Shown here piece after piece: positions 2,340 through 61,702 of a stretch of DNA of 64,000 nucleotides (positions are counted from its first letter, which is position 1; every line of letters begins with the position of its first letter). The notes beneath the pieces were generated by a model, which had not been told where the DNA came from, did not search any database, and worked only from the letters and a program-made list of their open reading frames with translations. The translations under genes were made by a program, and so were the position numbers. Source of the DNA: Apostichopus japonicus (lineage: Eukaryota > Echinodermata > Holothuroidea > Aspidochirotida > Stichopodidae); assembly GCF_037975245.1 (NCBI RefSeq), contig NC_092580.1:7848501-7912500 (forward strand), in the 5' to 3' direction.

Positions 2340-4519
2340 CATTTGCTTGATTTACTCCTAACTAATTTGCGCCATACTTACAGACGGTGTTGTTGTTATT
2401 CCTTGCAAAGGAGAGTCACCACTCCCACTTCCACTCCAAATTTCCTTAAGGAGAAAAAGAACAAAGAATTATATTTTTTGGTACAAATAAAAAAACAATA
2501 GACAAGTACATTTATGTATATCATTATCAGAAATATCTTTCCTAACTTCCTAAAAAATGATTATGCATCGGAATGACAAAAGAAGGATCCGCCATGGTGC
2601 CAACTACTTTAGGTACCCCGCTGCGGATACTTTAGGTAACATCACATAAATAGATATGCGCTACATACTTACAGAAGGCGTTGTTGTTATTCCTTGCCAA
2701 AGAGTGTCACCACTCCCACTTCCACTCCCACTTTCCTTCAGGAGAAAAAGAGCAAGGAAACATATTTTTCGGTAATACAAAACAGTAGACAAGTATATTT
2801 TTAAATACTTTTATCAGTAATATACTTCCTAACTTCCTAAAAATGATTATGCATCGGGGTGACAAAGCAAGGATCAGCCCGGGTGACAACTATATGTACT
2901 CCACTGCGCTGTACTTCAGACAACATGCCAGAGATAAGATATATGCGCCATATACTTACATACGACGTTGTTGTTATTCCTTGCCAAAGAGTGTCACCAC
3001 TCCCACTCGCACTTTCCTTAAGGAGAAAAGAGAAAAGAATCATATTGTTCGGTGCTCAAAACAATGAACAAGAACATTTATATATATTATCAACAGAAAT
3101 ATCTTTCCTAACTTCCTAAAAATGATTATGAATCGGGTGACACAAGAAGGATCCGCTGGGTGCCAACTATTCTAGGTACACTGTTCTAGGTACACATGTT
3201 ATATCACAGAAAGAGATATGCGCTATATACTTACAGAAGGCGTTCCGGTTATTCCTTGCCACAGAAAGTCACCACTCCCACTTCCACTCCCACTTCCACT
3301 CCCACTTTCCTTAAGGGGGAAAGAATAAATAATCACATTTTTCGGTGCTACAAACCAATAGACAAATATATTTATATATATATATCAGTATCAGGAATTC
3401 TTTCCTAACATCCTACACATGATTATGCAACGGGGTGACACAAGAAGGATCCAACTGGGTGCCATTCTAGGTACCCCGCTGCACTGTGCTTCAGGTTATA
3501 TCACAGAAACAAATATGCGCCATATACTTGCAGACGGCGTTGTTGTTATTCCTTGCCAAAGAGTGTCACCACTCCCACTCGCACTTTCCTTAATGAGTTA
3601 AACAACAAAGAATCATATTTTTCAGTGCTACAAAACAATAGACAAGTACATATATAAACACCCTTTATCAGGAATATCCTAAAAATGATGATACATCGGG
3701 GTGACAAAAGAAGGATACGCCTGGGTACCAACTATGTTAGGTACCCAGCTGCGCTCTTCTTCGTGTTATACCACAGAAAGAGATATGTACTTACATACGG
3801 CGTTGTTGGTATGCCACCACTCCCACTTCCACTTTCCTTAATGAGAAAAAGAACAAAGAATCATATTGTTCAGTGCTACAAAATAATAGACAGGTATATT
3901 TTTAAATACTTGTTATCATGAACATCTTTCGTAACTTTCCAAAAATGATTATGCGTCGGGACGAAAAAGAAAGGATCCGCCCTGATGCCAATTATTCGAG
4001 GTACCCTACTGCGCTGTATACTTCAGGTTATATCACGGAAATTAATATGCGCTATATACTTACAGACGGCTTTGATGTTATTTCTTGCAAAAGAGTGACA
4101 CCACTCCCAATTTCCTTAAGGAGAAAATGAGCAAAGAATCATATTGTTCGGTGCTACAAAACAATAGGCTAGTATATATATTAATAAATACCATGATCAG
4201 GAATATCCTTCCAACTTCCTAAAATTGATTATAAATCGGGGTGACAAAACAAGGATTCGCCCGGGTGCCAACTATTCTAGGTACCCCGCTGCACTGTGCT
4301 TCATGTTATATCACAGAAAGAGATATGCGCTATATACTTACAGACGGCGTTGTTGTAATGTCCTGCCAAATAGAGTCACCACTCCCACTCCCACTTTCCT
4401 TAAGGAGAAAAAGAACAAAGAATCATATTTTTCAGTGCTATCAAACAATAGACTAGTACATTTATAAATACTATTATCAGGAATATCTTTCCTCACTTCC
4501 TAATAACGATTATACATCA

Positions 4520-6159: not shown

Positions 6160-6245
6160 ATCAGCGTGCATAGCCTAGTGGTTAGGGTGTCCGCGTACAG
6201 AGCGGAAGGCCCGTGGTTCGAATCCTGGTGGAGGCTGAAAGTTTT
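6160..6245 (+). repeat. tRNA-like SINE head
   Basis: A box-like TAGCCTAGTGGTTAGG and B box GGTTCGAATCC are spaced as in a tRNA gene. The acceptor and T stems do not pair properly (the T-stem flanks CGTGG and CCTGG mismatch), so this is better read as the head of a tRNA-derived SINE than a functional tRNA. It is followed by a T-rich stretch and then (AT)n and (GGAT)n microsatellites. Confidence 0.5.
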
Positions 6246-8238: not shown

Positions 8239-11200
8239 TCAAAAAAAGTCAGTCATTTCATCAAAAAGTTTAGGCACTATATATTGTTCTGTTTTCCCAT
8301 CAAGATAGACATCTGATCTTGCCCACCAACATTTGTAGCCACGGAGAGAGAACTTGTCTCGCTGGTACACGTAGGCCTTCTCCTCCTCCTCCTCCTCCTC
8401 CTCCTCCTCCTCCTCCTCCTCCTCCTCCTCCTCCATCTCCTCCTCCTCCTTGGTGCCGAAGTTCATCTTTGCCTGGATCTTTCCAGTCTTGGAGTTACGA
8501 GATTCATCCATTATCGTCAAAGCCTTTCTTTGAAATTGTCCTGTAAAGATAATGGGTCAGGAATATTATACAATTCTACACCTGGAGTTTTTAATATAAA
8601 ATACCAAGTCAACGTGTAACGATAGTGGAATAGTTTTCGGATTGAAGGAGGGGGGGGGATGGGAGTAGGGTTAATATACTTGGAAGTGTTATTAACCTTT
8701 TGAAATTCACCAGGCTGTTTCATTTTATACCCACTCCCCCCTCCTCCCTGCCCAATCACAAAACACCTTCTTACTGTATAATGGAAAACCATTATAGTAA
8801 GATCCATTGAATTTCCTAAAAAAAGAACACTTACCCACAATTCCATGGATCCGGTTTGAGAAGCCTTCTCCTTTAACCAGAAAGAAATCAAAGTGCGTAG
8901 GGTGGTCTTTCCAGATGAGTCGTTGAATATTCATAACGATGTCATTACCACGTGATATCGTGACCAGACCCTTGGCTTGTATAGCAACGGTGTATTCGCC
9001 AAGTATGATATCCCTCTTCTTTCTCCACGAGTAAGACACCTCAGAATCTACTAACACTTGCAGGGGTGCAATGGTTACCCTATGGTGCCCTAACTTCACC
9101 CCAATACGGTTAAAGAAGGTATTCTTTGTGGTACTGTTTGATGAATCTCCGTTCATTGTGAATGGCCACATCTTAGCGTTCACAAGAATGTCTGAGGAAT
9201 CAAGTTTATGCAGGGAGAAAGGTTTCTTTGACAAATTTACGAAAATTTCGGATTTTTTTAAATATTTAATCTAATGTACCTGGTTAACTTTAATCTCCTT
9301 GTCTCAAATATACGTGAACGAAGATTACATTGCATGTTGGTTATAGTTAATTTGTATAATTTTATATTATCCAATGGTTTATTTTAGCTTTCGAGATATA
9401 AACTCGTTTAATCCATGTTTCTTGAAATAAGAGCTATAGTCCACCTTTTACAACAATTAAAAATTTCTTGTTAGTTTCATCCACAATTCCGAATTCAGTT
9501 TGAAATAACATATGGTTCTTTTGAAACCAGGGCGTGACTATTTTGCGAGCACATGGGCCATACATACGGTTTGGGTTCCCTCAGTTAAACCTATATTAGG
9601 CAACCAAAACAGTCGTGCGATGATCAGGCCATTTTTATTGTATTTTGACTATATGCCAATCAACTACCTCTTTCGGGTGTAGGAAGGAGGGCATGGGCCA
9701 TGTATAAATTTTGTGGGGCCCCAATTAATCTTAAGCCAAACCAGTTAGGCGTTGTGTATATATCTGTGGCTTTACTTCATATTTACTGTCTCTTGATATG
9801 TTTATGTGTCGTCAATCGACTTCATTTTTATAGAGTCTTTAGTTTCGCTGAGGGTGTCTAAAATTATTTCAAACTCAGGCTAAAATTTGTCCTCGTTACT
9901 TACCCAAACGTTTGTCAGTCAGAAGATTAACAATGGTCCCTTTCTCACCGTGAACATCAAAGCAAATAGTTATATTGGTGTTTGGAAGATCAATCACAAA
10001 GTGCGGATCGCCAAATACTTTAAGGAGAATTTGAGAAAGGAGAATAAAGCATTAAATCATTTCTCAGACAAACTTGGAATTATAAGAAACAGTATTAGAT
10101 TGGCCATCTGCGTCAATTAATTATTTAATTAACTAATCATATTAACAAACTTACTCAGTCCATCATTAAAGAAGTATTTTTAATTTTGACAAAAATACCT
10201 GTCGAAATTTGATCAGTCCGACAGCTATATATGTATTCGTTGATTTATTCTTGTCAAAAAAAAATGCACAATTGAGGATAACATTTGGTTTTACTATTTA
10301 ACTTAACCCAGAAATATCCATCTTAAATGTCTTCTTTATTAATTAATTGATTTGTATTTATGTTTCTTTGTTTAATGTTGTCTTTCTCTTTCATACCACC
10401 TCCTAATAGTAGCGACGACATGATATTAATCTTATCATCCAATCTGTCTAATGTTTAAACTTGACCAAGTCGTTTTTAATAAAAACAAGAATTCTTTACC
10501 TCTTGAAAAAGCAGTGTGGTACCGACCAGTGAACAACTCCTCTGGTTCAGCTGAAATGATATTTAAACTACTGGAATGAAGTTTCAAGAAATTCAGTTCT
10601 CGATAATGTTGGCTTGGAGTGATAATGTCCGCCACAGACAATTTTCGTCCTCGCGTATAGGCTACGTCTAACCCTGGTTTAATTTTAAGACGAAGATAAC
10701 CGAACCATCACCCTTAACTTATGTCATGGATATATTCTTGATAGAGAAAACCCTTCTCCAATTCACACTCTCAGCCCTCCTCTTTCCCTCCCTCATCCCT
10801 TTAGGAAAGATAAGCTATGGAACATTATCTGACACATTTACGCAACTTACGTAGTCTGGCTGCCAACGCATGGGGGAAGCGTGGATCCTCGTATGGAGGG
10901 GTGTAGAAGAGTAGGGCAGAGAGTGGGGTTACCAGATGGTACTGCAGAGATAATTGCAAAGCTTCTTTTCTTAGTGATTCTATGAGCTTAGGGGAAGTCT
11001 CCAGCTGAATCTGTTGTAGTAGTTCCTTGATCATGAGGTGTGCCCATATTTTCTCCGTGTAGTCTTCGACCACATTAGGCATTGGTGGCATCTGTAGATT
11101 GGCATAAGTGAAAGAGAAGATAATTACTTGAATTACTTTTGCTCTTTGGGGACAGAAATAATTGCAGACTACCGACAAATACAGAATATTGATCAAAATC

Positions 11201-14200
11201 ACACAGAACAGCTGGTTTTCCATGTGGTAGCTTGTATAGTATACAGATCATGACTTAAGATCTCAAATGACTTTTCATGACAATCATCATGATATTAACA
11301 TCGGATTCCCTGATGGTGCTGCCACCCCCACCCACCCCCCCCTCCCTCATCGCCAAACCGATAAGTATATTTCATATTAGTACAGTATGTATTAGTAGGT
11401 ACAATTTTCTCAGTTCGCTTCTCACCTCCGCAATGTCTTGAGAGACAGGTACATTAATGAGCCCATCGGCGGAATTGGCATTGAGTAGACCAACCACAGC
11501 CGGACCATTAAAGTCGTCACTGATCTTCCCTGCAATTATGATTTCCTTCCCGTTGAAGATGCTAACGAATTCGCTCTGTGTTAGAGTCTCGCTCGGTATT
11601 GCCTCTTCCCCATACGTCACTCTTACGTTATATAACAATGGTGAAGCTACTTCTTGAAAGAATCCTTCCATCTGTGAGGCAGCGTGTTGTTCGTTGGTCA
11701 CCCTTCGATAAACTCCCTGGTTGCGTACCGCTAGACGGTATAGTAATTGCTCGTCTACGTCAGCTCCGAACCCGATACAAAACAAGACCGCGTTGCCGTC
11801 TATCGCATTCGTCACGGATTCCAAGATGACATCAGGACTGGTTTCACCGACGCTTGGGACGCCGTCCGTCATAAAAATAATCGCATCGAATGTTGAGCTA
11901 TCGTCATCAAATTCGCTGGCTGCTTCAAGTAAAGCATTGTTAATATCGGTACCTAAAATGAAACATGTAAACAGTACATTATGAAAATTAATCAATGTTT
12001 TCGTCATCAACATCACTTATCGACATCGCCATCGTCATTGTCATAATAATCGCCAATAGCAATACAAAACTAATTGATTCATATTGAAGATGATGTAGTG
12101 AAACCTTACCTCCTGAGGCGTGCAGCGCATCAACAAAGATATCCACTTCTTGAACGGTTTCCTTAGTCACGGGAACAGGTTTCGCCTTCCAGGCCTGTAC
12201 CTGACTAGAGAACAGTACCAGATTGAAGAGATCCCGTTCTCGTAGCTGCCCAAAAATCGCTTTCAGAGAAATCTTCGTCTGTGTCAACTTATCACCGACC
12301 ATGGACCCACTAAGGTCTATGACGAAAACGACCTTCTTTGGTGCAGGGGGCAGGTCTTCGGGAGAGATGAAGTGAGCAAAGTATCCATTATTGATCTAGA
12401 ACAATGAAAATTAATCAAAGTGAGACACCTAAATAGCAATGCTTTTCGTGTGCTTCGTATAGTAGAATAATATATGTCTGACGAGTCTTTTTCTCTTACA
12501 TTCGTATTGGACATAAGCGCCAAATGCATCGTTTTTCCCTGTAGCTGTGTTCTATATTTACAAAATGAGACCCGTGGTAGAGCGTGTTGAGTAGGGTGGA
12601 TTGGACGGGACGGGGTTGGGTGAGTTGAAACGTGGAGGGGAGGGGTGGGGCGTCGTGGAACGGCGGTGTGGAGTGGCCGGGGTGGGGTGGGGTGGTGCGG
12701 GGTGTCCCGTTATAGGGTGAAGGATTATGCAGTTCTATATTGAGATATGTCAGTCTATAGCCATTATTTCCCCTATTTGTTAGTTACCTCAATTCTTCCT
12801 TCCAGAGGTCGATGTACCAAATCGTATTTTACCACAAAGACTCCATTGATACCGTGTTCTGGATCAACTTGTCGCTGTTCATAAGCCGATGGGATGAATC
12901 GAACACTGGCTTTAATCATTCCTTCCTCGAAATTCTTCTCGATACTTGATTCTAGATCGTCGGTCTTCGGTATCCAGAAAGCGTTCAGGGATTTAAGACC
13001 CTGGGTTTCCATTAAAAATGCTTCTACCTTCAAGTCTTCCACAATCTAGAAGAGATATAAAAGAAAATTAGAAAGCCTGTAACGTCAGAAAGATGGTATA
13101 TATTTATAAAATGAAAGAACAAATATCAATTATTGTTGGGATGGAATTAATATCTGTGACACTATGTTATTTTCAATACAATCTCTCTAACACTATAAGT
13201 TCTATATATGAACAAATAACGACTAAAGAAACTAAAATGGATACTTCCAGTCGTAGAGGCTTTGTGATATCCTCTTAATCTCATGTGTGAGAGAACAGAA
13301 ACACTTTGGGCTTTGATATCTCCAACGACATTTGCGGCCAACTTGTTTGGTGCAGTGTTCTAACATAAAATTTCCCAATACTAGTTTTATAATATTTTAA
13401 CGGTTGAATCTCTACCTTCTTTACGATAGGATAATCCATAAGAAGAGCCTAGGTCAGGATCCTGGGACTTTCATATTAACGATCCCCCTCTTAGAAAGTT
13501 TCTTAATTTTTCCTTCAGTATGTTATGCAAACGGGAATTCATAGTTCCTCCCCCTATTTTTACCGGGCCCCGGATTCCGTCACAGCTACATCCTTTACCC
13601 TTCCCCTCTCCCTCCCCATCCCCATACCCCACCCCACCCCCTCATCCACCTGTGGTTCGTGGACTATTCAAATTTTCAAAAATCATCTTGACAGCTATTC
13701 ACCGATACTTTATATCAAATTCTATTTGAAAAAATTACACAAACCTGTCCAGGAGCAATGTGGACCCTATGCGTAAATTCACCATCCTCACTTCTGAGTA
13801 GCTCGTCGTAAGTGAGGTGAAACGTCACTGTTGATCCAGGGGCCACGTCCAGGTCAACTTGAAATTTCAATGGGCTTCCGCTTTGGGAATGTTAATTTCA
13901 AATATTTTGTTTAATGAAAAAATACTTATTAAAAATGAATTTGTAAAAATTCATATATTCGTCCTAAGATCAAAAGAGAACAAACGGAACAGTACATAAG
14001 GTGTATTTTGTAGAATGTTTAGTCGACATGAGATAAGAAGCAACATACTATTTAGGGCATAATCGAGTATCGGAATAAACATACATTAGAGTTCCGTTCT
14101 TAACTTAATCCAACACCTGACCCAAATAGATATATATATATATAGAAAGCAAGCAACATCCAGTTACCTAGAAAAGTTTAAAAAAGTGAAAATACGATAT

Positions 14201-40393: not shown

Positions 40394-42830
40394 GTGTCCG
40401 GTAGATCAATCAGCGATCGCGGTGCTGGTGTAGGTTTTTTTTTATGTGCGTTCTCCCTTGTCTGGTTTTGTACCCGATTAATCTTCTTAAACACATTTTT
40501 GAATTATGTTTCATTAGTTTTTGTCATATCATATTTTTCGGTGCTCTCTCTCCTTAATGTATCCTACAAGCTTGCATCCTCATATATTGCCAACAGGTTA
40601 AAGCAAGTTTTACCTCATTTGATTAGTTCTGATCAGTCAGGGTTTATGGCAGGAAGATTCATTGGGGAGAATATAAGACAGGTTTACACTATTACGAGTT
40701 ACACCGAGTTAAATATTATTCCAGGTCTCTTACTCTTAATTGATTTTGAAAAAGCATTCGACTCAGTTTCACATGAATTTATTTTCAAAACGCTAGATTT
40801 GTTTAATTTTGGGGAAGGCTTTAAAAGATGGATCTCAATTTTTCAAAACAATGCACAATCTTCAGTCTTAGTAAACGGCCACATGACCCGATTTTTTTAT
40901 ATTAAATCAGGATGCCGTCAAGGGGATGGTCTTTCGCCTTATATTTTTCTCCTGTGTTCTCAGATTTTAAACATTGCCATTAATAATTGTGTGGATATTA
41001 AGGGTATTATCATATGTGATATGGAATATAAAGTTTTACAATATGCCGATGACACAACTATTATTTTAGATGGCACTGAAAATTCTCTTTCACAAACTTT
41101 CAAGCTTCTGGAAAATTTCCATAATATATCTGGTTTGAAAATTAACATGGATAAAACTAGTGCTGTTTGGATACGATCCAAAAAAGATAGTGATGATGTT
41201 TTATGTAAGAATTTTAACTTATCTTGGGTTGGCGATAATATATTCAGTTACCTTGGGGTAACATTGTGTACACAACTGGATGTTATCGTGAATGTAAATT
41301 ATGTTACTACTATGCAAGCCATTACATAACAAATTCACCACTGGTCAAAGAGGTTTTTGACAGTTTTATTTAGAATAGTTGTGGTAAAATCCCTTTTGTT
41401 GCCAAAGTTGAACCATCTCATTCTTTCACTTCAAACTCCAAGTAAAAAAATTATCCAGGAGATTCCAAGTTTTATAACTTTGTATGGGGAGGTAAAGTAG
41501 ATAGGATCAGTAGAAATCGAATGGCGCTTCCCGTTATAAAGGGAGATGCTGGTATGATCCAATTTGAACCTTTCGAGAAGGCACTTAAGATCACTTTGAT
41601 TCGTAGATTGCTTAAATATTATTAGTGACAGTAAGGTGTATAATTTATATAAAGTGAATGCTCCTAATTGTAATTTTGATTACTCTTCTGGTACTGATTG
41701 GGATAGAGTTATTACAGAAAGTAAAAATACCTTTTGGAAAGGTGTTTTTTCAGCCTGGAAAGATTACACCGTTTCGCTTAAGCCCCAAAATATTCATGAT
41801 GTTTTAAGTTCCAGTATTTGGCACAACGAAAAAATTAAGGTGGGTAATACATGCATTTTGTATAAAGATTGGCAAAGACATGGTATATTATATGTTAACG
41901 ATCTGATAAACTCTAAGGGTCAGTTCTTATCCTATGATGAGATTTATACAAAATATGATGTGAGAACAAATTTTCTTCCCGTGCATGGTATTAAAAAAGC
42001 AATAGAGAAATCCTTTTCTGGTCTATTAGGCCATATAAATACTTCTCTTGCACTCCCATTTCAAGGCTTTCATATTAAAACTGTTTTTATGGATCCAAAA
42101 GGGTGTAAAAGGTTTTATAATATTTTATTAACAAACAATAAGGTCCAATATAAATGTATTCACAAATGGAACATGCTCTTGTCCCCAATTTTGTCTGAAG
42201 TAGATTGGTATAAGGTGTGCACATACAATTGGAAATGTACTTCTGAGGTGAAGCTCCGTTGGTTCTAATTCCGTCTACTTAACAGAAATTTAGGGACAAA
42301 TACTTTCATGGTCAAAATTGGCAAAACCATTGATCCATTGTGCACTTTTTGTGGGGTGGCAGATGAGAGTTAAATTCATTTATTTTGGGAATGCAGCTTC
42401 ACTCAGAAAGTATTGAGGGATTTTCAAATCTGGGTTCAAATTAAATTGAACATCAATATTGCAGTTAGTAAAGAGCTTGTTCTGTTTGGAAATTATTTGT
42501 ACAAAGACGTTGTGTTTAATAACATCCTTCTGGTTCTGAAATTTTGTGTTTACAAAAGTAAGGTTAAAAATGAGAAACCCTTCCTTTAACTATGGTAAAA
42601 TTGATTTAAAGAATTTTTATTTAAAGAAAAGTTTATGTACCAAACTAGTTGTAAGCAAAATGCTTTTGATATCAGATGGCATAAGTGGAAATCTTTATTT
42701 GAAGTTTAATGATTATTTGTTGTTGTCATTAATATTGACTATTGGTCATAAAGTATATGTTATTATGAATTGTACATTGTTTGGACTCTTGTTGGAATGA
42801 TGATAAGAAAAGAAAGAAAAAGAAAAATTT
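40394..42830 (+). mobile_element. 5'-truncated L1/Tx1-type LINE with broken ORF2
   Basis: The first open part (to 41329) contains reverse-transcriptase motifs in order: SYIANRLKQVLPHLISSDQSGF, LLLIDFEKAFDSVS, SGCRQGDGLSPYIF, VLQYADDTTIIL and GLKINMDKT. The catalytic YADD is intact. After a stop/frameshift region (41329-41636) the frame resumes with TFWKGVFSAWKDY, SSSIWHNEKIKVGN and HGILYVNDLINSKGQFLSY, the post-RT region typical of L1/Tx1-clade ORF2. A further stop follows at 42268. No endonuclease or ORF1 is present. The 3' end is an A-rich tail near 42800-42830, abutting a satellite monomer. Non-functional copy. Confidence 0.85.
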
Positions 42831-43496: not shown

Positions 43497-46400
43497 CAGA
43501 TACAAATATGCGCCATATACTTACAGGCGGCGTTGTTGTTATGCCTTGCCAAAGAGAGACACTACTCCCACTTCCACTCCCACTTTCCTTCAGGAGAAAA
43601 ATAACAAAGAATCATATTGTTCGCGCTACAAAACAATTGACAAGTACATTTATATATATATCATTATTAGGAATATCTTTCCTAACTTCCTAAAACTGAT
43701 TATACATCGGGGTGACACAAGAAGGATCCGTCTGGGTGCCAACTAATCTAGATACCCCGCTGCGCTGTACTTCGGGTTATATCACAGATTATGCGCCATA
43801 TACTTACAGACGGTGTTGTTGTTATGCCTTGCCAAAGAGTGTCACTACTACCACTTTCCTTGAGGAGAAATGGAACAAAGAATCATATTTTTGACATGCA
43901 AAACAATAGATAAGTACATTTATTAGGAATATATATATATAATAATTATATTAGGAATATTATCAGGAGTATGCTTCCTAGCTTCCTAAAAATGATTATT
44001 CATCGGTGTGACAAAGAAACTATTCACCCGGATGCCAACTATTCTAGGTACCCCACTGCGCTATACTCCATGTAAAATCACAGAAATAGATATGCGCTAT
44101 AGACTACAGAAGGCGTTGTTGTTATTCCTTGCAAAGAGTGTCACCACTCCCACTTTCCTTTAGGAAAATGGAGTAAAAATCATATTGTTCGGTGCTACAA
44201 AACAATACACAAGTACATGTTATGATCAGAAACATCTTTTCTAACTTCCTAAATATGATTTTGCATCGGGATGGCACAAGAAGGATCCGCCTGGATGCTA
44301 ACTGTTCTAGGTACCCAGCTGCACTGTGCTTCAGGTTATATCACAGAAAAAGATATGCGCTATATACTTTCAGACGGCGTTGTTGTTATGCCTTGCCAAA
44401 GAGAGTCACCTCTCCCACTTCCAATCCCACTTTCCTTTTGGAGTAAAAAGCCAAAGAATCATATTTTTGGGATGCAAAACAATAGATAAGTACTTTTTAT
44501 AGATACCATTATCCGGAATATGCTTACTAGCTTCCTAAAAATGATTATGCATTGGTGTGACAAAGAGATTATCCACCCGGATGCCAACTATTCTAGGTAC
44601 CCCACTGCGCTATACTTCAGGTAACATCACAGATATAGATATGCGCTATATACTTACAGAAGGCGTTGATGTTATTCCTTGCCAAAGAGTGTCACCACTC
44701 CCTCTTTCCTTAAGGAGAAAAGAGTAAAGAATCATATTGTTCGGTGCTACAAAACAATGAACAAGTACATTTATATATGTTTTGATCAGAAACATCTTTT
44801 CTAACTTCCTAAATATGATTTTGCATCGGGATGACACAAGAAGGATCCGCCCGGATGCTAACTGTTCTAGGTACCCCGCTGCACTGTGCTTCAGGTTATA
44901 TCACAGAAAAAGATATGCGCTATATACTTTCAGACGGCGTTGTTGTTATGCCTTGCCAAAGAGAGTCACCTCTCCCACTTCCAATCCCACTTTCCTGTAG
45001 GAGTATAACACCAAAGAATCATATTTTTGGGATGCAAAACAATAGGTAAGTACTTTTTATAGATACCATTATCCGGAATATGCTTCCTAGCTTCCTAAAA
45101 ATGATTATGCATTGGTGTGACAAAGAAATTATCCACCCGGATGCCAACTATTCTAGGTACCCCACTGCGCTATTCTTCAGGTAACATCACAGATATAGAT
45201 ATGCGTTATATACTTACAGAAGGCGTTGTTGTTATTCCTTGCCAAAGAGTGTCACCACTCCCTCTTTCCTTAAGGAGAAAAGAGTAAAGAATCATATTGT
45301 TCGGTGCTACAAAACAATGAACAAGTACATTTATATATGTTTTGATCAGAAACATCTTTTCTAACTTCCTAAATATGATTTTGCATCGGGATGACACAAG
45401 AAGGATCCTCCTGGATGCCAACTGTTCTAGGTACCCAGCTGCACTGTGCTTCAGGTTATATCACAGAAAAAGATATGCGCTATATACTTTCAGACGGCGT
45501 TGTTGTTATGCCTTGCCAAAGAGAGTCACCTCTCCCACTTCCAATCCCACTTTCCTTTGGAGTAAAAAGCCAAAGAATCATATGTTTGGGATGCAAAACA
45601 ATAGGTAAGTACTTTTTATAGATACCATTATCCGGATAATGCTTCCTAGCTTCCTAAAAATGATTATACATTTGGTGTGACAAAGAAATTATCCACCCGG
45701 ATGCCAACTATTCTAGGTACCCCACTGCGCTATACTTCAGGTAACATCACAGATATAGATATGCGCTATATACTTACAGAAGGCGTTGTTGTTATTCCTT
45801 GCCAAAGAGTGTCACCACTCCCTCTTTCCTTAAGGAGAAAAGAGTAAAGAATCATATTGTTCGGTGCTACAAAACAATGAACAAGTACATTTATATATGT
45901 TTTGATCAGAAACATCATTTCTAACTTCCTAAATATGATTTTGCATCGGGATGACACAAGAAGGATCCTCCTGGATGCCAACTGTTCTAGGTACCCCGCT
46001 GCACTGTGCTTCAGGTTATATCACAGAAAAAGATATGCGCTATATACTTTCAGACGGCGTTGTTGTTATGCCTTGCCAAAGAGTGTCACCACTCCCTCTT
46101 TCCTTAATGAGAAAAGAGTAAAGAATCATATTGTTCGGTGCTACAAAACAATGAACAAGTACATTTATATATGTTTTGATCAGAAACATCTTTTCTAACT
46201 TCCTAATTATGATTTTGCATCGGGATGACACAAGAAGGATCCGCCTGGATGCCAACTGTTCTAGGTACCCAGCTGCACTGTGCTTCAGGTTATATCACAG
46301 AAAAAGATATGCGCTATATACTTTCAGACGGCGTTGTTGTTATGCCTTGCCAAAGAGAGTCACCTCTCCCACTTCCAATCCCACTTTCCTTTGGAGTAAA

Positions 46401-48745
46401 AAGCCAAAGAATCATATTTTTGGGATGCAAAACAATAGATAAGTACTTTTTATAGATATCATTTCCCGGAATATGCTTACTAGCTTCCTAAAAATGATTA
46501 TGCATTGGTGTGACAAAGAAATTATCCACCCGGATGCCAACTATTCTAGGTACCCCACTGCGCTATACTTCAGGTAACATCACAGATATAGATATGCGCT
46601 ATATACTTACAGAAGGCGTTGTTATTTTTCCTTGCCAAAGAGTGTCGCCACTCCCTCTTTCCTTAAGGAGAAAAGAGTAAAGAATCATATTGTTCGGTGC
46701 TACAAAACAATGAACAAGTACATTTATATATGTTTTGATCAGAAACATCTTTTCTAACTTCCTAAATATGATTTTGCATCGGGATGACACAAGCAGGATC
46801 CGCCCGGATGCTAACTGTTCTAGGTACCCCGCTGCACTGTGCTTCAGGTTATATCACAGAGAAAGATATGCGCTATATACTTTCAGACGGCGTTGTTGTT
46901 ATGCCTTGCCAAAGAGAGTCACCTCTCCCACTTCCAATCCTACTTTCCTTTTGGAGTAAAAAGCCAAAGAATCATATTTTTGGGATGCAAAATAATAGAT
47001 AAGTACTTTTTATAGATACCATTATCCGGAATATGCTTCCTAGCTTCCTAAAAATGATTATGCATAGGTGTGACAAAGAAATTATCCACCCGGATGCCAA
47101 CTATTCTAGGTACCCCACTGCGCTATACTTCAGGTAACATCACAGATATAGATATGCGCTATATACTTACAGAAGGCGTTGTTGTTATTCCTTGCCAAAG
47201 AGTGTCACCACTCCCTCTTTCCTTAAGGAGAAAAGAGTAAAGAATCATATTGTTCGGTGCTACAAAACAATGAACAAGTACATTTATATATGCTTTGATC
47301 AGAAACATCTTTTCTAACTTCCTAAATATGATTTTGCATCGGAATGACACAAGAAGGATCCGCCCGGATGCTAACTGTTCTAGGTACCCAGCTGCACTGT
47401 GCTTCAGGTTATATCACAGAAAAAGATATGCGCTATATACTTTCAGACGGCGTTGTTGTTATGCCTTGCCAAAGAGAGTTACCTCTCCCACTTCCAATCC
47501 TACTTTCCTTTAGGAGTAAAAAACCAAAGAATCATATTTTTGGGATGCAAAATAATAGATAAGTACATTTATAGATATCATTTCCTGGAATATGCTTCCT
47601 AGCTTCCTAAAAATGATAATGCATTGGTGTGACAAAGAAATTATCCACCCGGATGCCAGCTATTCTAGGTACCCCACTGCGCTATACTTCAGGTAACATC
47701 ACAGATATAGATATGCGTTATATACTTACAGAAGGCGTTGTTGTTATTCCTTGCCAAAGAGAGTCACTACTCCAACTTTCCTTAATGAGAAAAAGAACAA
47801 AGAATCATATTTTTCGGTGCTACGAAACAATGAACAAGTGCATTTATATATATATATATATATATCATTATCAGGAATATCTGTCCTAACTTCCTAAATA
47901 TGAGATTGCCTTGGGGTGACAAAAGAGGGATCAGATCCGGGTGCCAACTTTTCAAGGTACCCCGCTGCGCTGTACTTCAGGTAATATCACGTAAACAAAT
48001 ATGCGCCATATACTTACAGACGGTGTTGTTGTTATGCCTTGCCAAAGAGAGTCACCACTCCCACTTACACTCCCACTTTCCTTTAGGAGTAAAAGAATAA
48101 AGAATCATATTTTTGGGGATGCAAAACAATAGATAAGTACATTAAATAGATACCATTATCAGGATTATATTCTTCCCTAACCTCATAAAAATGATTATGC
48201 ATCGGGATGACACAACTAGGATCCGCCCGGGTTCCGACTATTCTAGGTACCCCGCTGAGCTATACTTCAGGTATCATCACATAAATAGATAGGCGCCATA
48301 TACTTACAGACGGCGTTGTTGTTATTCCTTGCCAAAGAGAGTCACTACTCCAACTTCCCTTCAGGAGAAAAAGAACAAAGAATCAATTTTTTTCGGTGCT
48401 ACAAACAATGAACAAGTAAATTTATATATATCATTATCAGGAATATCTGTCCTAACTTCCTAAAATGATTATGCATCGGGGTAACAAAAGAAGGATCCGC
48501 CAGGGTGCCAATTATTCTAGGTACCCCGCTGCAGAAAGGGATATGTACTATTTACTTACAGACGGCGTTGCTGTAATGCCTTGCCAAAAGAGAGACACTA
48601 CTCCCACTTCCACTCCCACTTTCCTCAATGAGAAAAAGAACAAAGAATCATATTTTCAGTGCTACAAAACTATAGACAAGTACATTATAAATACCATTAT
48701 CAGGAATATCTTTCCTCACTTCCCAAAAATGATTATACATCGATA

Positions 48746-54326: not shown

Positions 54327-54506
54327 GTGATACATGTACTGTAGGCCAGTCAATATACTGATTGACCCACCACAAATTGCAACAGAAGGTTTTTCTTCAG
54401 TTTTGTTATCGGATATGTGTCTAAAATAACATATTAAAAGTCTAGAAAAATCTACGCAGGCGAAAGGCAAAATTTCAAGATGGCCGCCAAAATTCCAAAA
54501 TGGCCG
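54327..54506 (+). repeat. Left terminal inverted repeat of the Academ-like element
   Basis: Pairs with 61513-61702 over its length. It lacks a stretch of about 10-15 bp (TCACGATTTGGGGG) present in the right repeat. Confidence 0.8.
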
Positions 54507-54960
54507 ACCACAGACTCTCATTTTCATGATATCTACCCATCTGGTAAGTGATTTTTGCCGGTTTTGGTCAGTATTTCATGGTTTTCAGCAGCGCCAAAGC
54601 CAATGGAACACATGTCGAATCGATTGGACGGTACATTCCTGTACAAACATCCAAAATGGCCAATCACAGACTCTCATTTTCATATCTTCCCTTCTGGTAA
54701 GTGCTTTTTGCATGTTTTGAACTGAAAATCATGGTTTTCAACATCGCCAAAGCCAATGAAATGCATTTCGAATCGATCGGTCTTTATCTACCTGTACCAA
54801 ACTCCAAAATGGCCGCGAAAAAAAAAACAAGTTGAATACAACATTCAATTTCACCACATCTTTTGATCTGGTAAGTCTATTTTTTGAAAATGTTGAACAG
54901 CAAGTCGCATTGTTTTGAACACCGCCAAAGCCAAATCCGAAAATCCAAGAAAAAGAACAA
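54495..54960. repeat. Three-copy subterminal repeat of about 155 bp
   Basis: Units start with CCAAAATGGCC at 54495, 54651 and 54804. Shared blocks are ACAGACTCTCATTTTCAT, (A/T)TCTGGTAAGT and CGCCAAAGCCAA(T/A). It is present only at the left end, next to the terminal repeat. Confidence 0.85.
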
Positions 54961-55088
54961 AAATGACTCATTTCCCATGACCCATTATGTCCATGCAAAA
55001 TTCCATTGCCATAACTACTGGGAACATTCGGAATATCAGCCACACTCATGACATTTGGTTGGTATCCTACCTCTCATTGATCTTTGAA

Positions 55089-55620
55089 TTACATATCATC
55101 CATTCCATCTGTGTTCTCCTCAGACATGTTTGTGCAGATACCACGGCACTCTCCACAGCATGTTGAACAGTCCAGTCCAGCTTGTCGACAGGAGCATCGC
55201 ATACTCTGGCATCCCATTTTGCAGTTACATCGCACTATTTGTAGAAGTGTTTTGGGTGCAACCTCCATGTCGCATTGCACAGGCACCAATTTACCTTCCA
55301 CTGCTTTCCATCCGAAGATCTGAGGATCGAGGGTTGTGACTCCTTTCCACACTTGGACTTGGTGATATACACGGAGGCTGTGGAACTTCGCAGCAGATGA
55401 CGTAGGAGGCAAGTTCTCTGGTCGAACGCAACTAGCACTTGTAGCTACCTTCTGTTGGAAGCGTTCCAGTCTCAGTTTGTCCAATGTGTCGCCTGCTGAG
55501 CCTTTATACAGAGACACCAAAGCCGATTCGCCTGCCTTCGCCGTATCTTCCAATGTAGATCTTCCATCCAGGAATACCTTAGCCTGTGCTCTGAAGCAGA
55601 CGTCAGTACGGATTTGCTTC
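55089..55620 (-). CDS. CXC-domain tail of the Academ-like protein (frame-shifted continuation)
   Basis: Open frame directly downstream of the 1328-codon ORF. Read back into the upstream ORF it joins as ALKQIRTDVCFRAQAKVF, so the two are one gene separated by a one-base break at about 55619-55628 (GGACTGCTCTGA). It ends with a ten-cysteine cluster, CNCKMGCQSMRCSCRQ...CSTCCGECRGIC, of the CXC/tesmin type, a likely zinc-coordinating DNA-binding module. The break is a plain deletion or sequence error unless recoding is used; the local sequence is not a canonical slippery heptamer. Confidence 0.7.
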
Positions 55621-58600
55621 AGAGCAGTCCTTTTCCAAGGCCGAACAACCGAGACGTCGTGTCACAACCAAGGATGGCATGTGTGAACAAAATATTCTGG
55701 CAGACTTCTTCTCCCAAAACTCTCTGAACATGCTTGATGTTCCAGCATCGTGACTGCTTCTTTGTTCCAGTCTTCCCTTCTGGTCTGAAGAAGATATCTA
55801 AAGAATCCTCCGTAGTATGGAAACAGAGGAGTACAAGGAGGTCCGTGTCGTCACCTACAACGATAGTTTGATGACATCCTGCAGACTCTATGGCCGTCTG
55901 TACTATGAGTACATCAGCATCTCCTTCAGCATGGTGTGTTTTACATCCCATCTGCTCTAGATGTATACTCAGTAGCCGGATGAAACTCTGTTTGTTGTCT
56001 TTGTTGGACAGGAACTCCTCTTTCTTGGATTTCATAGGCATTGCCCCATTAAAATCTACTTTCGGTCCCTCTCGTCCACTTGTTCGGCGTTGATGAGCCC
56101 CGTCTTTTGTTGACATATCATTCTCATACCCATCGAACACAATGACTGCCTTCCCATACTTGCGTGTCACATAGTTGGTGTATCGCTCACATATGCCATC
56201 ATATGTTGAGCCACGCTGCCAAGGAATCCTATGTAATAGGGATCCACCATCCAGGACGTACTGGCTTTGACCAACAGGTTCAGTCATATCGTCTTGGATC
56301 AGACTCCAGATAGCATCTGCAAGTGCTGGTTTGTTAGCAGACCTCAATACTTGTTTGCCTTCAAACAATGCTGGTGGATAGCTGCATAGCTCAAACCTGA
56401 AAATCTCTTGCAGCTGATCGTTCCTTGTTCCCATCGTGACAAGTCGTTGGAATAGAAGTTGTGGATCGATGTTCACCGTATCATGGTTGATTTTGATGAC
56501 TGATGTGTTGAGTGTCACCGCCTGATCCTTCTTCCTGAAAGTGTGTTCCAGAACACTTTTCCCAACCATGGAATCCAGAATGCCTTGTCCTATATCCTTC
56601 ACTGTGTCTACGTTCACCCTGCCGTCTGCATTGATGCCAGTAACAATGTTGCGCAAGCCCTGGGCACCACTAAACGGATTCCGTGTTTCCAGGAACTCGA
56701 CCAACTCGCAGATATCTGCCATGTCTCTTTCCTGTCTGGCATTTGTAGTGTCTTTATGTTGCTCATTTGTGGTATAGTTTATACCGGTCAGCTGCTGCAT
56801 TGCATTGTTAACCTCGGAGCAATGAGGATGTGCCATCAACCAGATCAGTCGCTGGGTTTCCGTCATCCCACGGCCTCGTGTCAACCCTCCCGTTGTTTTC
56901 ATGCTGCGCATCAGAACTTGTTCGATGACCAGATCAGCCGAGAAGCCAGCCCATAGACGATCCGATCTGCGTACCACGTGTAGTCCTCCACTGAAATGTT
57001 GGAAGATATCTGGAGCTGTCTCGGAGAGCTTGACAAGGTATTGCAAATACACAGAAAGAGATTTTGTGTAGAGGTTATGTCCTGAAGCAGCAAGGTAGGG
57101 GAGCATCTCAACCATGGCCTGAATGTGGAGGTCCCATATGCCTAATCGCTCACCTTTGAGGAACTTGCGTAGGATTTGCACCATCTCCATGAACTGAAGC
57201 CAAAGTCTGGCTGTACGTGAGTTCTTCATGGACCTTTTCTTGGCCTCAAGTTGTCCGTGAATCCTGGTGAAGGCTTTTGAATCATGCACTTGACTGAAGG
57301 TTGTATTACCCGCTGACAACAGCTCATCGAACAAGATGCCCACAGCTTCGAGATCTGCTTTGCAGTCATCGTCTGGTTCGGAAGTGGATTCTGGTACAGT
57401 GTGATCCATGTTGCACTCTACTGGTATGTCCCCGGCAACACTAAAATCTCCTCTGTTTGCCCTATTGCTCTTAGCTTCGATGCAGGGCGTCTTGACACTG
57501 AATACGTCCGAGACAATTATGCCATCGAGAGCTGAATCAACCAGGAACAGACCTCGGACTGCTCGTTCAATTGCCTTCCCGGAGAGCATGTGGTTGACAG
57601 TGTTACTGGCATAGATTGTTTCCAACATCTCCTGCAGCCCTGATCCTGCCATCAGATGTCCAATGCAGCCGATAAAGCTCATCTCGGTATGAAAGCCTCC
57701 TAATCTCAAAACAATGCAGTGCAGCGGGCTGTTTGCTGGTTGGCTCCTGATCACTTGCAAGGCCTTCCACCACAATGGTTGGTCGAATGTTATGATGGGT
57801 GTCACGCCATACCGTTGAGCATGCTGGCCAATGAAATGAAGGGTCGAACTCACGCAAGACATGTTCCCCGGGTCCATATCTATCATAGGCAGAAAGACAA
57901 CGGAGGATTGTCCAGGGTGGTCACCTTTGTGTATCATTTGCATGAACCCAGACCATGCTGGCCTCGGAGAACGCACTGAGAAGGATAGTTGCCAGAGATC
58001 GTCGATCCGTGATGTTGGGTCATCTTTCTCGATGATTTGCAGCTTTTCATAGCAGAGAGTTCGGAGTCCATCGAACATTGGCATGAAGGGCACTATGTTT
58101 ACAGTACCGACTGCTGATATCTCGTCTGCGCTGACTGTACCTCTTGGAATATGTTGATTCCTCTTGATTTGTGGTGTGATGGCAGCAATCATCCCCATGC
58201 CATGGAAGGTACCCATCCCATCTATGGTTCTAACGTTATGGTCAACGTTATCTGCGACATACTGCACAAAATGTCCTGCTGTCAAGTTAGGGATGTCTGT
58301 CCCATCGGTAATTGCAGCATTTCGTCCGAATTTAGCTACTTCCGAATATGAGCTGCAAAAGCCAAGTTTACTCAGAGTGTCTATGAGGAACCTCGAAGCA
58401 AAATGATGATGGAGCTGTACATCAAGTCCAACTTGTAGAGGGGCTAATAAGACTCTTGGACGAGTAGCCTGCATAATCGCCTGCCCCAGTGAAGCTAACT
58501 TGAGTTGTCCTCCTTTGGATGGAAACAGGACATCCAGCAACATGCGCAGTGACTCTGGCAGATATGCTATACTCTCTTCAATTGACGACAGCTCCTCACA

Positions 58601-59605
58601 ACTCGGGTAATCATCCGTTGCCTGACTGACTGATTGGATGTCTGTTTTAATTAATTTTGCTGCTGTTTGTATTATTCTCAATTTGTCAGTTTCGGTGTTG
58701 TTTCCTTTAGATTGACAGTAGAAGTCTTGGAGAATTTTGGATGCATTATTCCTGAGGGTGACGACATTAGTCTTCCCGTTGATTTCAGCTACGACAATCG
58801 AGTCACTGAAGTGTTGTGTCAGCTGATCTTTCATGTAAGTGAAATTGTACGGCATGCACGACGAGTCGACCAAAAACTCCTGCATCTTGTCAATGAGATC
58901 ATGTATGGTTGTTTGCTCATCATCATTTTCTTGCAGGTATGTCGCCACTTTGAGGAACGCTTCCATCTGCGTAACATTCTGTGGTCTACCGCGCTTGGCT
59001 GGTGGGGGATCATTCACTTGGCGAAACTGTTGTGGTATTCTTTTGTTCGTTCTGAAGTTCACGCTACACACCTGATGATAAACTACATCAGCAGAGAATG
59101 GGTCATTGATGTTATTCAGTCTGCCTCTCACCGCATGTGACCATACATCTTCTCGTTCGTCACAGAGTGTTGTTATTTCACTATGGAACTGGTCTGTCTG
59201 GACACGCACCAGCTTATGCCCCTCTTTTGGTCTCCGGTGGTTGAATGTGTCTGGCCCGCCGCAAAATAAGCAATGTTCTTTATAAACAAATGGCGACCTT
59301 GCAGACCGCAAAATTCGTTGCTCGCCTGCTGATGTGCCAGTGTCAATAGCACTCTTTCTCTTTGAAGCAGCTATTTCATTCTCGTTGCAATAAACTTTGC
59401 GACATTCTTTGAGAACTTGTTGACCTGGCTCTGTGTGGATGTCATCCCCCCGTGATAAGCTTGCTCTGGCTATTCCTTCGCAACCTTTTTTCCGAAGTGT
59501 CACTATCGCTTCTGCCCCAAGGAAAGCCTTTTTACAGATTTTACACTCATCCATTATGCTTTCGTTTGCTGAGCCTGTAGGGAAGACAAAACAGAGGGAG
59601 GGCAC
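55619..59605 (-). CDS. Academ-like transposase with C-terminal PIN/XPG-type nuclease
   Basis: 1328 codons, intronless. The true start may be M18 (MDECKIC) at 59554. Residues 21-75 hold CKIC and CRKVYC; 112-180 hold CLFC...C148...H177..C180, probably zinc-binding. An AT-hook-like AKRGRPQN lies near 203-210. The central part has DNVDHNVRTIDGMGTFHGMG (452-471), MIDMDPGNM (574-582), TFDQPLWWKAL (606-616) and GGFHTEMSFIG (636-646). This acid-rich pattern is compatible with an RNase-H-fold transposase, but catalytic residues are not assigned. The C-terminal part resembles PIN/FEN/XPG nucleases: VLDGGSLL (D1119), VFDGY (D1158), EGDAD (E1227, D1229, D1231), GDDTD (D1252, D1253, D1255) and GCDTTS (D1315). 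All acids of the fold are present, so the nuclease could be active. Preservation of such a long frame suggests a relatively young copy. Confidence 0.8.
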   Translation of the reverse strand: MPSLCFVFPTGSANESIMDECKICKKAFLGAEAIVTLRKKGCEGIARASLSRGDDIHTEPGQQVLKECRKVYCNENEIAASKRKSAIDTGTSAGEQRILRSARSPFVYKEHCLFCGGPDTFNHRRPKEGHKLVRVQTDQFHSEITTLCDEREDVWSHAVRGRLNNINDPFSADVVYHQVCSVNFRTNKRIPQQFRQVNDPPPAKRGRPQNVTQMEAFLKVATYLQENDDEQTTIHDLIDKMQEFLVDSSCMPYNFTYMKDQLTQHFSDSIVVAEINGKTNVVTLRNNASKILQDFYCQSKGNNTETDKLRIIQTAAKLIKTDIQSVSQATDDYPSCEELSSIEESIAYLPESLRMLLDVLFPSKGGQLKLASLGQAIMQATRPRVLLAPLQVGLDVQLHHHFASRFLIDTLSKLGFCSSYSEVAKFGRNAAITDGTDIPNLTAGHFVQYVADNVDHNVRTIDGMGTFHGMGMIAAITPQIKRNQHIPRGTVSADEISAVGTVNIVPFMPMFDGLRTLCYEKLQIIEKDDPTSRIDDLWQLSFSVRSPRPAWSGFMQMIHKGDHPGQSSVVFLPMIDMDPGNMSCVSSTLHFIGQHAQRYGVTPIITFDQPLWWKALQVIRSQPANSPLHCIVLRLGGFHTEMSFIGCIGHLMAGSGLQEMLETIYASNTVNHMLSGKAIERAVRGLFLVDSALDGIIVSDVFSVKTPCIEAKSNRANRGDFSVAGDIPVECNMDHTVPESTSEPDDDCKADLEAVGILFDELLSAGNTTFSQVHDSKAFTRIHGQLEAKKRSMKNSRTARLWLQFMEMVQILRKFLKGERLGIWDLHIQAMVEMLPYLAASGHNLYTKSLSVYLQYLVKLSETAPDIFQHFSGGLHVVRRSDRLWAGFSADLVIEQVLMRSMKTTGGLTRGRGMTETQRLIWLMAHPHCSEVNNAMQQLTGINYTTNEQHKDTTNARQERDMADICELVEFLETRNPFSGAQGLRNIVTGINADGRVNVDTVKDIGQGILDSMVGKSVLEHTFRKKDQAVTLNTSVIKINHDTVNIDPQLLFQRLVTMGTRNDQLQEIFRFELCSYPPALFEGKQVLRSANKPALADAIWSLIQDDMTEPVGQSQYVLDGGSLLHRIPWQRGSTYDGICERYTNYVTRKYGKAVIVFDGYENDMSTKDGAHQRRTSGREGPKVDFNGAMPMKSKKEEFLSNKDNKQSFIRLLSIHLEQMGCKTHHAEGDADVLIVQTAIESAGCHQTIVVGDDTDLLVLLCFHTTEDSLDIFFRPEGKTGTKKQSRCWNIKHVQRVLGEEVCQNILFTHAILGCDTTSRLFGLGKGLL

Positions 59606-61512
59606 AGTTTCAGAAGTTCCCCTGGAACTGTTGTTAATTTTTGCGTGCTTAATATATTTGCAAAGTAGGGGTCAACTATGGCCATTAGCAGGTGGGGTGT
59701 TTCGTTATACAATACAGTTGTACAATACCTGTACTTAATATACTGTACAATGCTACTGTACACAGGTACAGTATGTACACAGCCTATTCATACATAAAAT
59801 TGGACTATGTCACACTATTGACATTTTTAGGGTATCATTTCCTAAACTTGGCCAAATGTGTGGTTGTAATAGTCAAAAAACGCAAATTTTGGCCATTTTA
59901 GGTAGCCATAACTTCACAAAACAACATCAGAGAAGCTTCATACTACAGAAACCTAGTCTATGGGATAGTTTCATTAGATTAATATTATTGTTAGCTGGTG
60001 GGATATGTATTTGCTGAGAAATATTACCTCAAACTTGACAAAATACAAAAAAATTACTATATCATTTTACTGCCGATTTGCGAAATTTCAAAGAATTTTA
60101 AATCCGTCAAGAATCAACGAATTTCGCTAAATTTTTTGAGTCGGTCGAGCAACAGCCTCCGGTGATTTGACACGGAATGACCCTGATGTCCAAGTTGAAT
60201 TCGGAAATACATGATTTGCCCGGGCTTCACGCACGTTGTCTTTTCTCCCGCCCTGGTTTTGAACAACTTTCCAAAAGTCACTTCGCGTATGTTCATAACC
60301 AATGCACTACCCCCCCCCCCCTCGACCCACGCCGAGAGTGCCCAACCGCTAGTTCCTCTGGATGATCACTGCATTGTAGTTTGTAAGCACAGGAAGGCCC
60401 CACAGGTAATTTACCAAAGAATTCACTTATTTGATCAGCCGATTAGCCTGAGCAAAACTCCCTGCCCCCTCCCATTATTTACCATCACCCGGGTACATCA
60501 CAACAATGTAAGCCTAGGAACACATACTGGATGCCACATGTTTCGGCTTCGACGAACTGATGCCTCCACATCTTAACCCATCCCAGCATAAGCCTATCAT
60601 TGTTTCGCAGAACTGGTACCAGTGTATTCATATATGGTAAGGGGGCCTAGCTATATCATTTCATTTCATTCTCCTTTTCATTTTGTCTTGTTCCTCGTGA
60701 AGCCCAAACACCCAAACTCCTGAGGCATCGTCATAGAATAGCAAAGGTCGCTAGTACATACTCACCGATTCCCTGTGGGCTCGACGTAACTCAAGAAATA
60801 ACCGAGACTGCGTTTCCAAGATCTTCAGTTCATCTTCAGAAGATGATCATACATGTATTAAGCAAGTTGAAGCTAGCAAACAGAAGTAGCACTTGCTAAA
60901 GTTTGGTAACTCTGTGTTATGTATGGTAGCAAAATAATCCCCCTATATATATTTTTTTTTATTGAATCCGATCTGGGATTGTGTATATGTGGAATGAGGG
61001 GGGGATTTTTCTTGGAGGCATAGCTGAGGGCCCATGATAGCCTCCGAGAGGGGAGCCTTAATGATTAACTCATCCAGCTGGGCTAGTAATCCAACCATAG
61101 GTTCCAAACTGACAATCGAATTCAGACTCATGATCTGGTCTATTTTTCGAGTGTCTCCCCAACGCGAAATGATCGAATGGGGGGGGGGGGGAGGGGAAGG
61201 GAGAGTGGCAATGCATGATGGCAATGCATGGGCATTGAAGCCCGGTTCTCTATTCCATCCCCAGAATCCAATTGAGGGTTATCACAATTCCTAGATATGA
61301 ATAAACAAGACATTTTTCCCCTACCCCGAAAAATCGGTAGTTGACTCAAATTCTGGGAGCCATATTGGCCCACAACTCACAAAGATGACAGTTGACGTTT
61401 TCAATTCTGGTATGAGTGTCTTCTCTTGTGTCGAAAACCCCCATTTCCGATTCGAAATTATGCAAAACGGATGAATAACAGTCAAATTATTGCGGAAATA
61501 AGAATTTCATAT
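59606..61512. other. 5' noncoding part of the Academ-like element
   Basis: About 1.9 kb between the big ORF and the right terminal repeat. It should contain the promoter. There are poly-C/poly-G runs at about 60309-60319 and 61181-61192 and a degenerate GTACAATAC...GTACAGTA repeat at 59700-59780. No exon is supported. Confidence 0.45.
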
Positions 61513-61702
61513 CCGCCATTTTGAATTTTTGGCGGCCATCTTGAATTTTCACCTTTCGCCTGCATAGATTTTTCTAGACTTTTTATATGTTATTCTAGGG
61601 ACTTTGCTGATACCGAAATCGAAGAGAAACCTTCTGTTGCAATTTGTGGTGGGTTGACCCCCAAATCGTGATAGATTGACTGGCCTACTGACCAATATCA
61701 CT
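61513..61702 (-). repeat. Right terminal inverted repeat of the Academ-like element
   Basis: Reverse complement of 54327-54506 with scattered substitutions and one indel. Confidence 0.8.

Follow-up and report, generated by a model that had tools for sequence, protein, structure and literature searches.

The stretch of Apostichopus japonicus DNA analyzed here (contig NC_092580.1, positions 7,848,501 to 7,912,500; 64,000 nucleotides, referred to as the window) carries a transposable element of 7,346 bp at window positions 54342-61687, in which a minus-strand open frame joins a transposase-like core to a nuclease of the EXO1/FEN type. The ends of the element were read against other copies, and relatives were searched for in the same genome (671.6 Mb in 35 contigs). 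The outermost bases are TAGGCC...GGCCTA. The left terminal inverted repeat (54342-54523, plus strand) starts TAGGCCAGTCAAT, and the copies on contigs C17 and C21 begin at the same base; the right terminal inverted repeat (61496-61687, minus strand) ends in ...GGCCTA. The long repeats are imperfect, with arms of 159 nt at 54365-54523 and 61496-61654 (83% identity), while the terminal arms at 54341-54357 and 61672-61688 match at 94%. The trinucleotide CTG stands on either side of the element as a target-site duplication (TSD; 54339-54341 and 61688-61690). The C17 copy (L011/L012), which carries insertions and from which the part matching 58207-61202 is deleted, has TAG...CTA ends and the duplication TAAT, and the one on C21, a short copy of about 265 bp in which both ends are joined, is flanked by TTT. 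Copies of other families with TAG ends are flanked by GGA (L054), ACA (L055), and ATG (L057). Thus, all six copies read at both ends have a TSD of 3 or 4 bp beside TAG...CTA ends, a count that leaves out L009, L013, and L015 (one or both ends outside the stretch read) and L056 (ends not located). An earlier note on this DNA, made from its letters, had described a transposon bounded by long inverted repeats; the transposon and its repeats are present, and other copies share the ends, while the bounds given were 15 bp too wide on each side.

The main frame runs on the minus strand from 59671 to 55622 (1,350 codons from stop to stop). Its first start codon is a GTG at 59605, from which residues are numbered here. 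Because the alignments of many relatives start at residues 18 to 21, the ATG at 59554 (residue 18) is the likely start; one relative (L032) aligns already from residue 4. Counted from this methionine, the frame (55622-59554) has 1,311 codons and comprises a Cys/His-containing N terminus, the transposase-like core, and the nuclease. It has 53 matches in the genome, itself included, with identities of 34 to 100% (mostly 42 to 57%), and is therefore beyond chance. The N-terminal motifs (59066-59545, minus strand) are C21-x2-C24 and C112-x2-C115 ... H177-x2-C180, which we infer may bind zinc; the second set is invariant across four distant families. A second, shifted frame (55661-55092) overlaps the main frame by 40 bases. 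Both frames are present as previously noted.

The transposase-like core (56891-58306, minus strand) contains three acids that are invariant wherever a copy has a letter, i.e., D452 (14/14), D608 (14/14), and E895 (15/15). These and the other acid counts given here leave out the closest copy and are not independent, several rows being near relatives. An alignment of four families likewise keeps D452 and D608 without exception; E895 is lost from it solely because of a one-column gap in L057, where, by eye, a glutamate stands four residues past the aligned D891. The three residues are the best candidates for a DDE catalytic triad.

Beyond the core lies the EXO1/FEN-type nuclease (55622-56263, minus strand), with the acids D1119, D1158, D1229, D1231, D1253, D1255, and D1315. 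A profile built from seven sequences (A3) matched human EXO1 in a structure library (expectation value [E], 1.5e-6), with the VFDG...K..R, A-D, ED-TD, and GCD..S..G.G segments in register, and it matched five EXO1 sequences. The ordered acids of the FEN/XPG nucleases (D, D, E/D-x-D, D-x-D, and GCD, followed by a G-x-G-K turn) are present. Among the copies, D1158, D1229, and D1315 (each 16/16) and D1253 (18/18) do not vary, and D1231 and D1255 are each kept in 16 of 18. D1119 falls outside the EXO1 alignment, yet it is invariant in 18/18 copies. The domain resembles EXO1, FEN1, XPG, and GEN1 in motif order and acids, and human EXO1 in its profile match, and it differs from them in its fusion to a transposase-like core.

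The C-terminal part of the protein lies in the shifted frame (55092-55661, minus strand) and contains a ten-cysteine CXC cluster (55128-55229, minus strand). Between the nuclease and this tail, the frame of the window copy is broken by a one-base length difference at 55626 (minus strand) from its closest copy (L011 on C17), which is 94.3% identical over 2,950 aligned bases and has one extra base at this position. In 22 other loci, we traced the reading onward from the GCD motif toward the CXC cluster. Twelve of them (L017, L018, L019, L028, L030, L034, L043, L051, L053, L054, L056, and L057) hold both in one frame. A further six keep the frame across the junction; four of these are broken further on (L020, L039, L041, and L042), and two end before the cluster (L022 and L023). 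L011 is in frame at the junction but contains a stop, and L021, L026, and L029 are broken near the junction in other ways. Three of the later breaks were compared with an unbroken near relative: those of L039 and L042 are single-base losses that lie in different positions, and that of L041 was not found in the segment examined. The one-base change of the window copy occurs in none of the 22 loci, and the break is therefore private and the element damaged. Nuclease and CXC tail belong to one protein. The Pfam model PF03638 (Tesmin/TSO1-like CXC; curated cut-off, 23.5 bits) matched two of seven members weakly (best E, 0.0019); it did not match the window member, and full-length relatives fell below the cut-off.

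A genome search with the CXC part returned 150 scored matches among 257 candidates, some of them within long open frames. The four loci read, i.e., L054 and L055 (1,572 codons; one family), L056 (1,551 codons), and L057 (1,552 codons), each contain the Cys/His motif, core, nuclease, and CXC cluster in this order in a single frame, and the CXC tail is thus part of the same protein in distant families as well. Identity to the window protein is 22% for L054, 23% for L056, and 25% for L057. The 8,392-bp copies of L054 (on C8) and L055 (on C18) are identical at 8,390 of 8,392 positions, and since they lie on different contigs, this family must have moved recently. The matches listed for the CXC search include a third locus with a frame of 1,572 codons, on C19. 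L019, L020, and L030 share an interruption of the coding sequence by about 500 bp (an intron or an insertion) between residues ~735 and 751; the window copy has no such segment. Searches of viral and prokaryotic collections confirmed no relatives of the element, and a host XPG exon, used as the query in the same collections for a second profile, likewise found none.

The core also has relatives outside this set. Pfam DUF6589 (PF20231) gave two weak matches to the relatives (E, 0.0074 and 0.049). Comparison of the core profile with four DUF6589 frames of the same genome by hhalign gave a probability of 99.4% over 491 columns (E, 1.9e-21 for this one comparison), and one reversed and seven column-shuffled controls gave 0.5% or less; both profiles are shallow, and two of the four DUF6589 frames are nearly identical. 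D452, D608, and E895 face D, D, and E in these frames. Eight of the nine DUF6589 matches in the genome lie above the cut-off (e.g., L061/L063 at C13:2870400-2873900, L059, L060, and L062), and no DUF6589 locus is among the matches listed for the window protein. The sole frame read downstream of its core, that on C13, continues into a nuclease-like region (97.5% against A3; six shuffles, ≤0.7%), in which a glutamate stands where the window protein has D1119; the stretch read stops before the GCD motif. These likenesses suggest that DUF6589 is likely to be an Academ-like transposase core, followed in at least one frame by a nuclease-like region. None of the papers searched mentions DUF6589. A match between the core profile (A4) and A3 proved to be an artifact, caused by a single row (L024) extending into the nuclease.

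The TSDs and the nuclease point to the superfamily. In PMC10045372, AcademX elements are given TSDs of 3 or 4 bp and AcademH elements TSDs of 9 or 10 bp, and the difference is tied to the encoded nuclease or helicase. The element resembles AcademX (Kapitonov and Jurka 2010; Kojima 2020) in its 3- to 4-bp TSDs and encoded nuclease, as described there, and in being several kilobases long with inverted repeats. AcademH belongs to the same superfamily and differs, on the same account, by its helicase and its TSDs of 9 to 10 bp; scanning the main frame and the relatives against Pfam turned up no helicase family, and the window protein matches no helicase model. On the basis of the TSD length and the nuclease, we therefore call the element AcademX-like, and its features very probably place it in the nuclease-carrying lineage of Academ. 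Since this lineage is already named in the same text, the element adds a member and not a new kind. The present analysis contributes exact end positions, a lesion confined to this copy, distant relatives whose protein lies in a single frame, and a connection between DUF6589 and transposases of this type. None of the papers searched pairs Academ with XPG. The AcademX nuclease is said to have been described as XPG by Kojima in 2020.

What the earlier note had read into the protein is partly supported. Its Academ assignment agrees with the 3- to 4-bp duplications and the nuclease of AcademX, its PIN/XPG nuclease is recovered with the acids as an EXO1/FEN-type domain, and its CXC tail belongs to the same polypeptide. 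Of its RNase-H-like core, the analysis recovered the invariant acids and homology to the DUF6589 frames, and the RNase-H fold is putative; the different processing of transposition intermediates that the note read from the second nuclease is a conjecture. "Intact-looking" was too strong a term for a copy with a one-base break, and the novelty that the note implied is not borne out, given the lineage already named and the recurrence of the architecture in several families of this genome.

On balance, the likely explanation is a slightly damaged autonomous AcademX-like DNA transposon. Several observations weigh against it. Scans of the window protein found no Pfam and no NCBIfam family; the Pfam matches of the relatives are all subthreshold, and NCBIfam gave two weak, unrelated-looking matches on single relatives (best E, 0.0026). 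Some of the weak matches in these scans are plainly spurious. The core profile A4 matched no solved structure, and single-sequence structure models were unusable (mean predicted local distance difference test score, 37.3 for the nuclease and 36.8 for the core); profiles A1, A2, and A5 and the window protein alone gave nothing meaningful against solved structures either. The A3 search retrieved no FEN1, XPG, or GEN1 chain at E values up to 10. Pfam XPG_I, which is blind to the nuclease of the element, matches six places in the genome, none of them in these elements; the one place read (on C10) matches human XPG. Because XPG_I misses the domain, we regard it as EXO1/FEN-like by profile and motif and as distant from the classical members. 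Differences between the window and the C17 copy number 45, 37, and 53 at the three codon positions (of 788, 788, and 789, respectively), figures that give little indication of selection between the pair. Finally, the case for membership in Academ is built on the architecture of the element, its ends, and the length of its TSDs.

Some room is left for a different DDE superfamily, named or not, into which a FEN-type nuclease was recruited independently. DUF6589 is the one Pfam model with a match to the core of the relatives, and a weak one (best E, 0.0074); however, the combination of TSD length and nuclease is that of AcademX in PMC10045372, and we consider a different superfamily improbable. 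A functional break before the CXC tail, whether a programmed frameshift or an intron yielding two protein forms, might explain the 40-base overlap of the frames and the frame changes that tblastn reported nearby in several copies. This reading is highly improbable, given that the closest copy is one base longer at the break, that the frame runs unbroken from the GCD motif to the CXC cluster in 12 of the 22 other loci, and that the remaining breaks lie at differing places; programmed frameshifting, for which the tblastn frames had seemed suggestive, was dropped on these grounds. Least credible of all is a domesticated host gene. A long frame with a single break could belong to one, but the inverted repeats, the TSD, the dispersed decayed copies, and the short internally deleted derivative are those of a transposon.

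If the element is an AcademX-like transposon with two nuclease sites, binding to DNA, at the ends or the target, would fall to its Cys/His motifs and CXC tail, and the DDE core (D452, D608, and E895) would nick at the TAG ends and join them to the target 3 to 4 bp apart. The nuclease would then act in cis, cutting the other strand or trimming flaps at the excised ends or the gapped target, so that the cuts would be divided between two metal-dependent active sites of the same polypeptide. Other cut-and-paste elements make theirs with a single site, helped by a hairpin or by enzymes of the host. Both sets of acids are conserved across distant families, which argues that both sites matter, and a role of the second nuclease in cutting transposition intermediates is plausible. 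A division of labor between the DDE core and the nuclease is offered tentatively, as somewhat less than an even prospect. The more specific proposal is rather unlikely; here the DDE and EXO1/FEN-type sites would split first- and second-strand cleavage, the nuclease would set the 3- to 4-bp stagger, and DUF6589 would be the core of the same family, making the dual-nuclease design ancient and widespread.

A serious competitor, to which we give a sizable chance short of one-half, is that the nuclease is accessory, serving to remove flaps once gaps are filled, to resolve intermediates of repair, or simply to bind DNA, while the DDE core makes all essential cuts. In other superfamilies, a DDE core is sufficient by itself; moreover, two acids of the nuclease are variable (each in 2 of 18 copies), and the C13 DUF6589 frame has a glutamate in place of D1119. 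However, most of the acids are kept across families that are merely 22 to 25% identical, and the fusion to the core is kept in four distant families and, recognizably, in a DUF6589 frame. The element and its relatives provide a clear, alignable fusion of a transposase with a flap/exonuclease-type nuclease in several families with uninterrupted frames, at least one of which moved very recently. The part played by the second nuclease in transposition is thereby open to testing.

Other features of the window include a subterminal tandem repeat of period 153 within the element (54490-54814, plus strand) and long tandem arrays at 2374-4518 (period, 280) and 43959-48532 (period, 274). Two plus-strand frames at 40394-42268 (311 and 210 amino acids), the first with a reverse-transcriptase-like YADD motif, presumably belong to a long interspersed nuclear element-type retrotransposon. 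A 214-amino-acid frame at 11372-12016 on the minus strand resembles, by eye, part of what we take to be an inter-alpha-trypsin-inhibitor heavy chain/VWA-type gene. A tRNA match above the Rfam gathering score lies at 6164-6236 on the plus strand.

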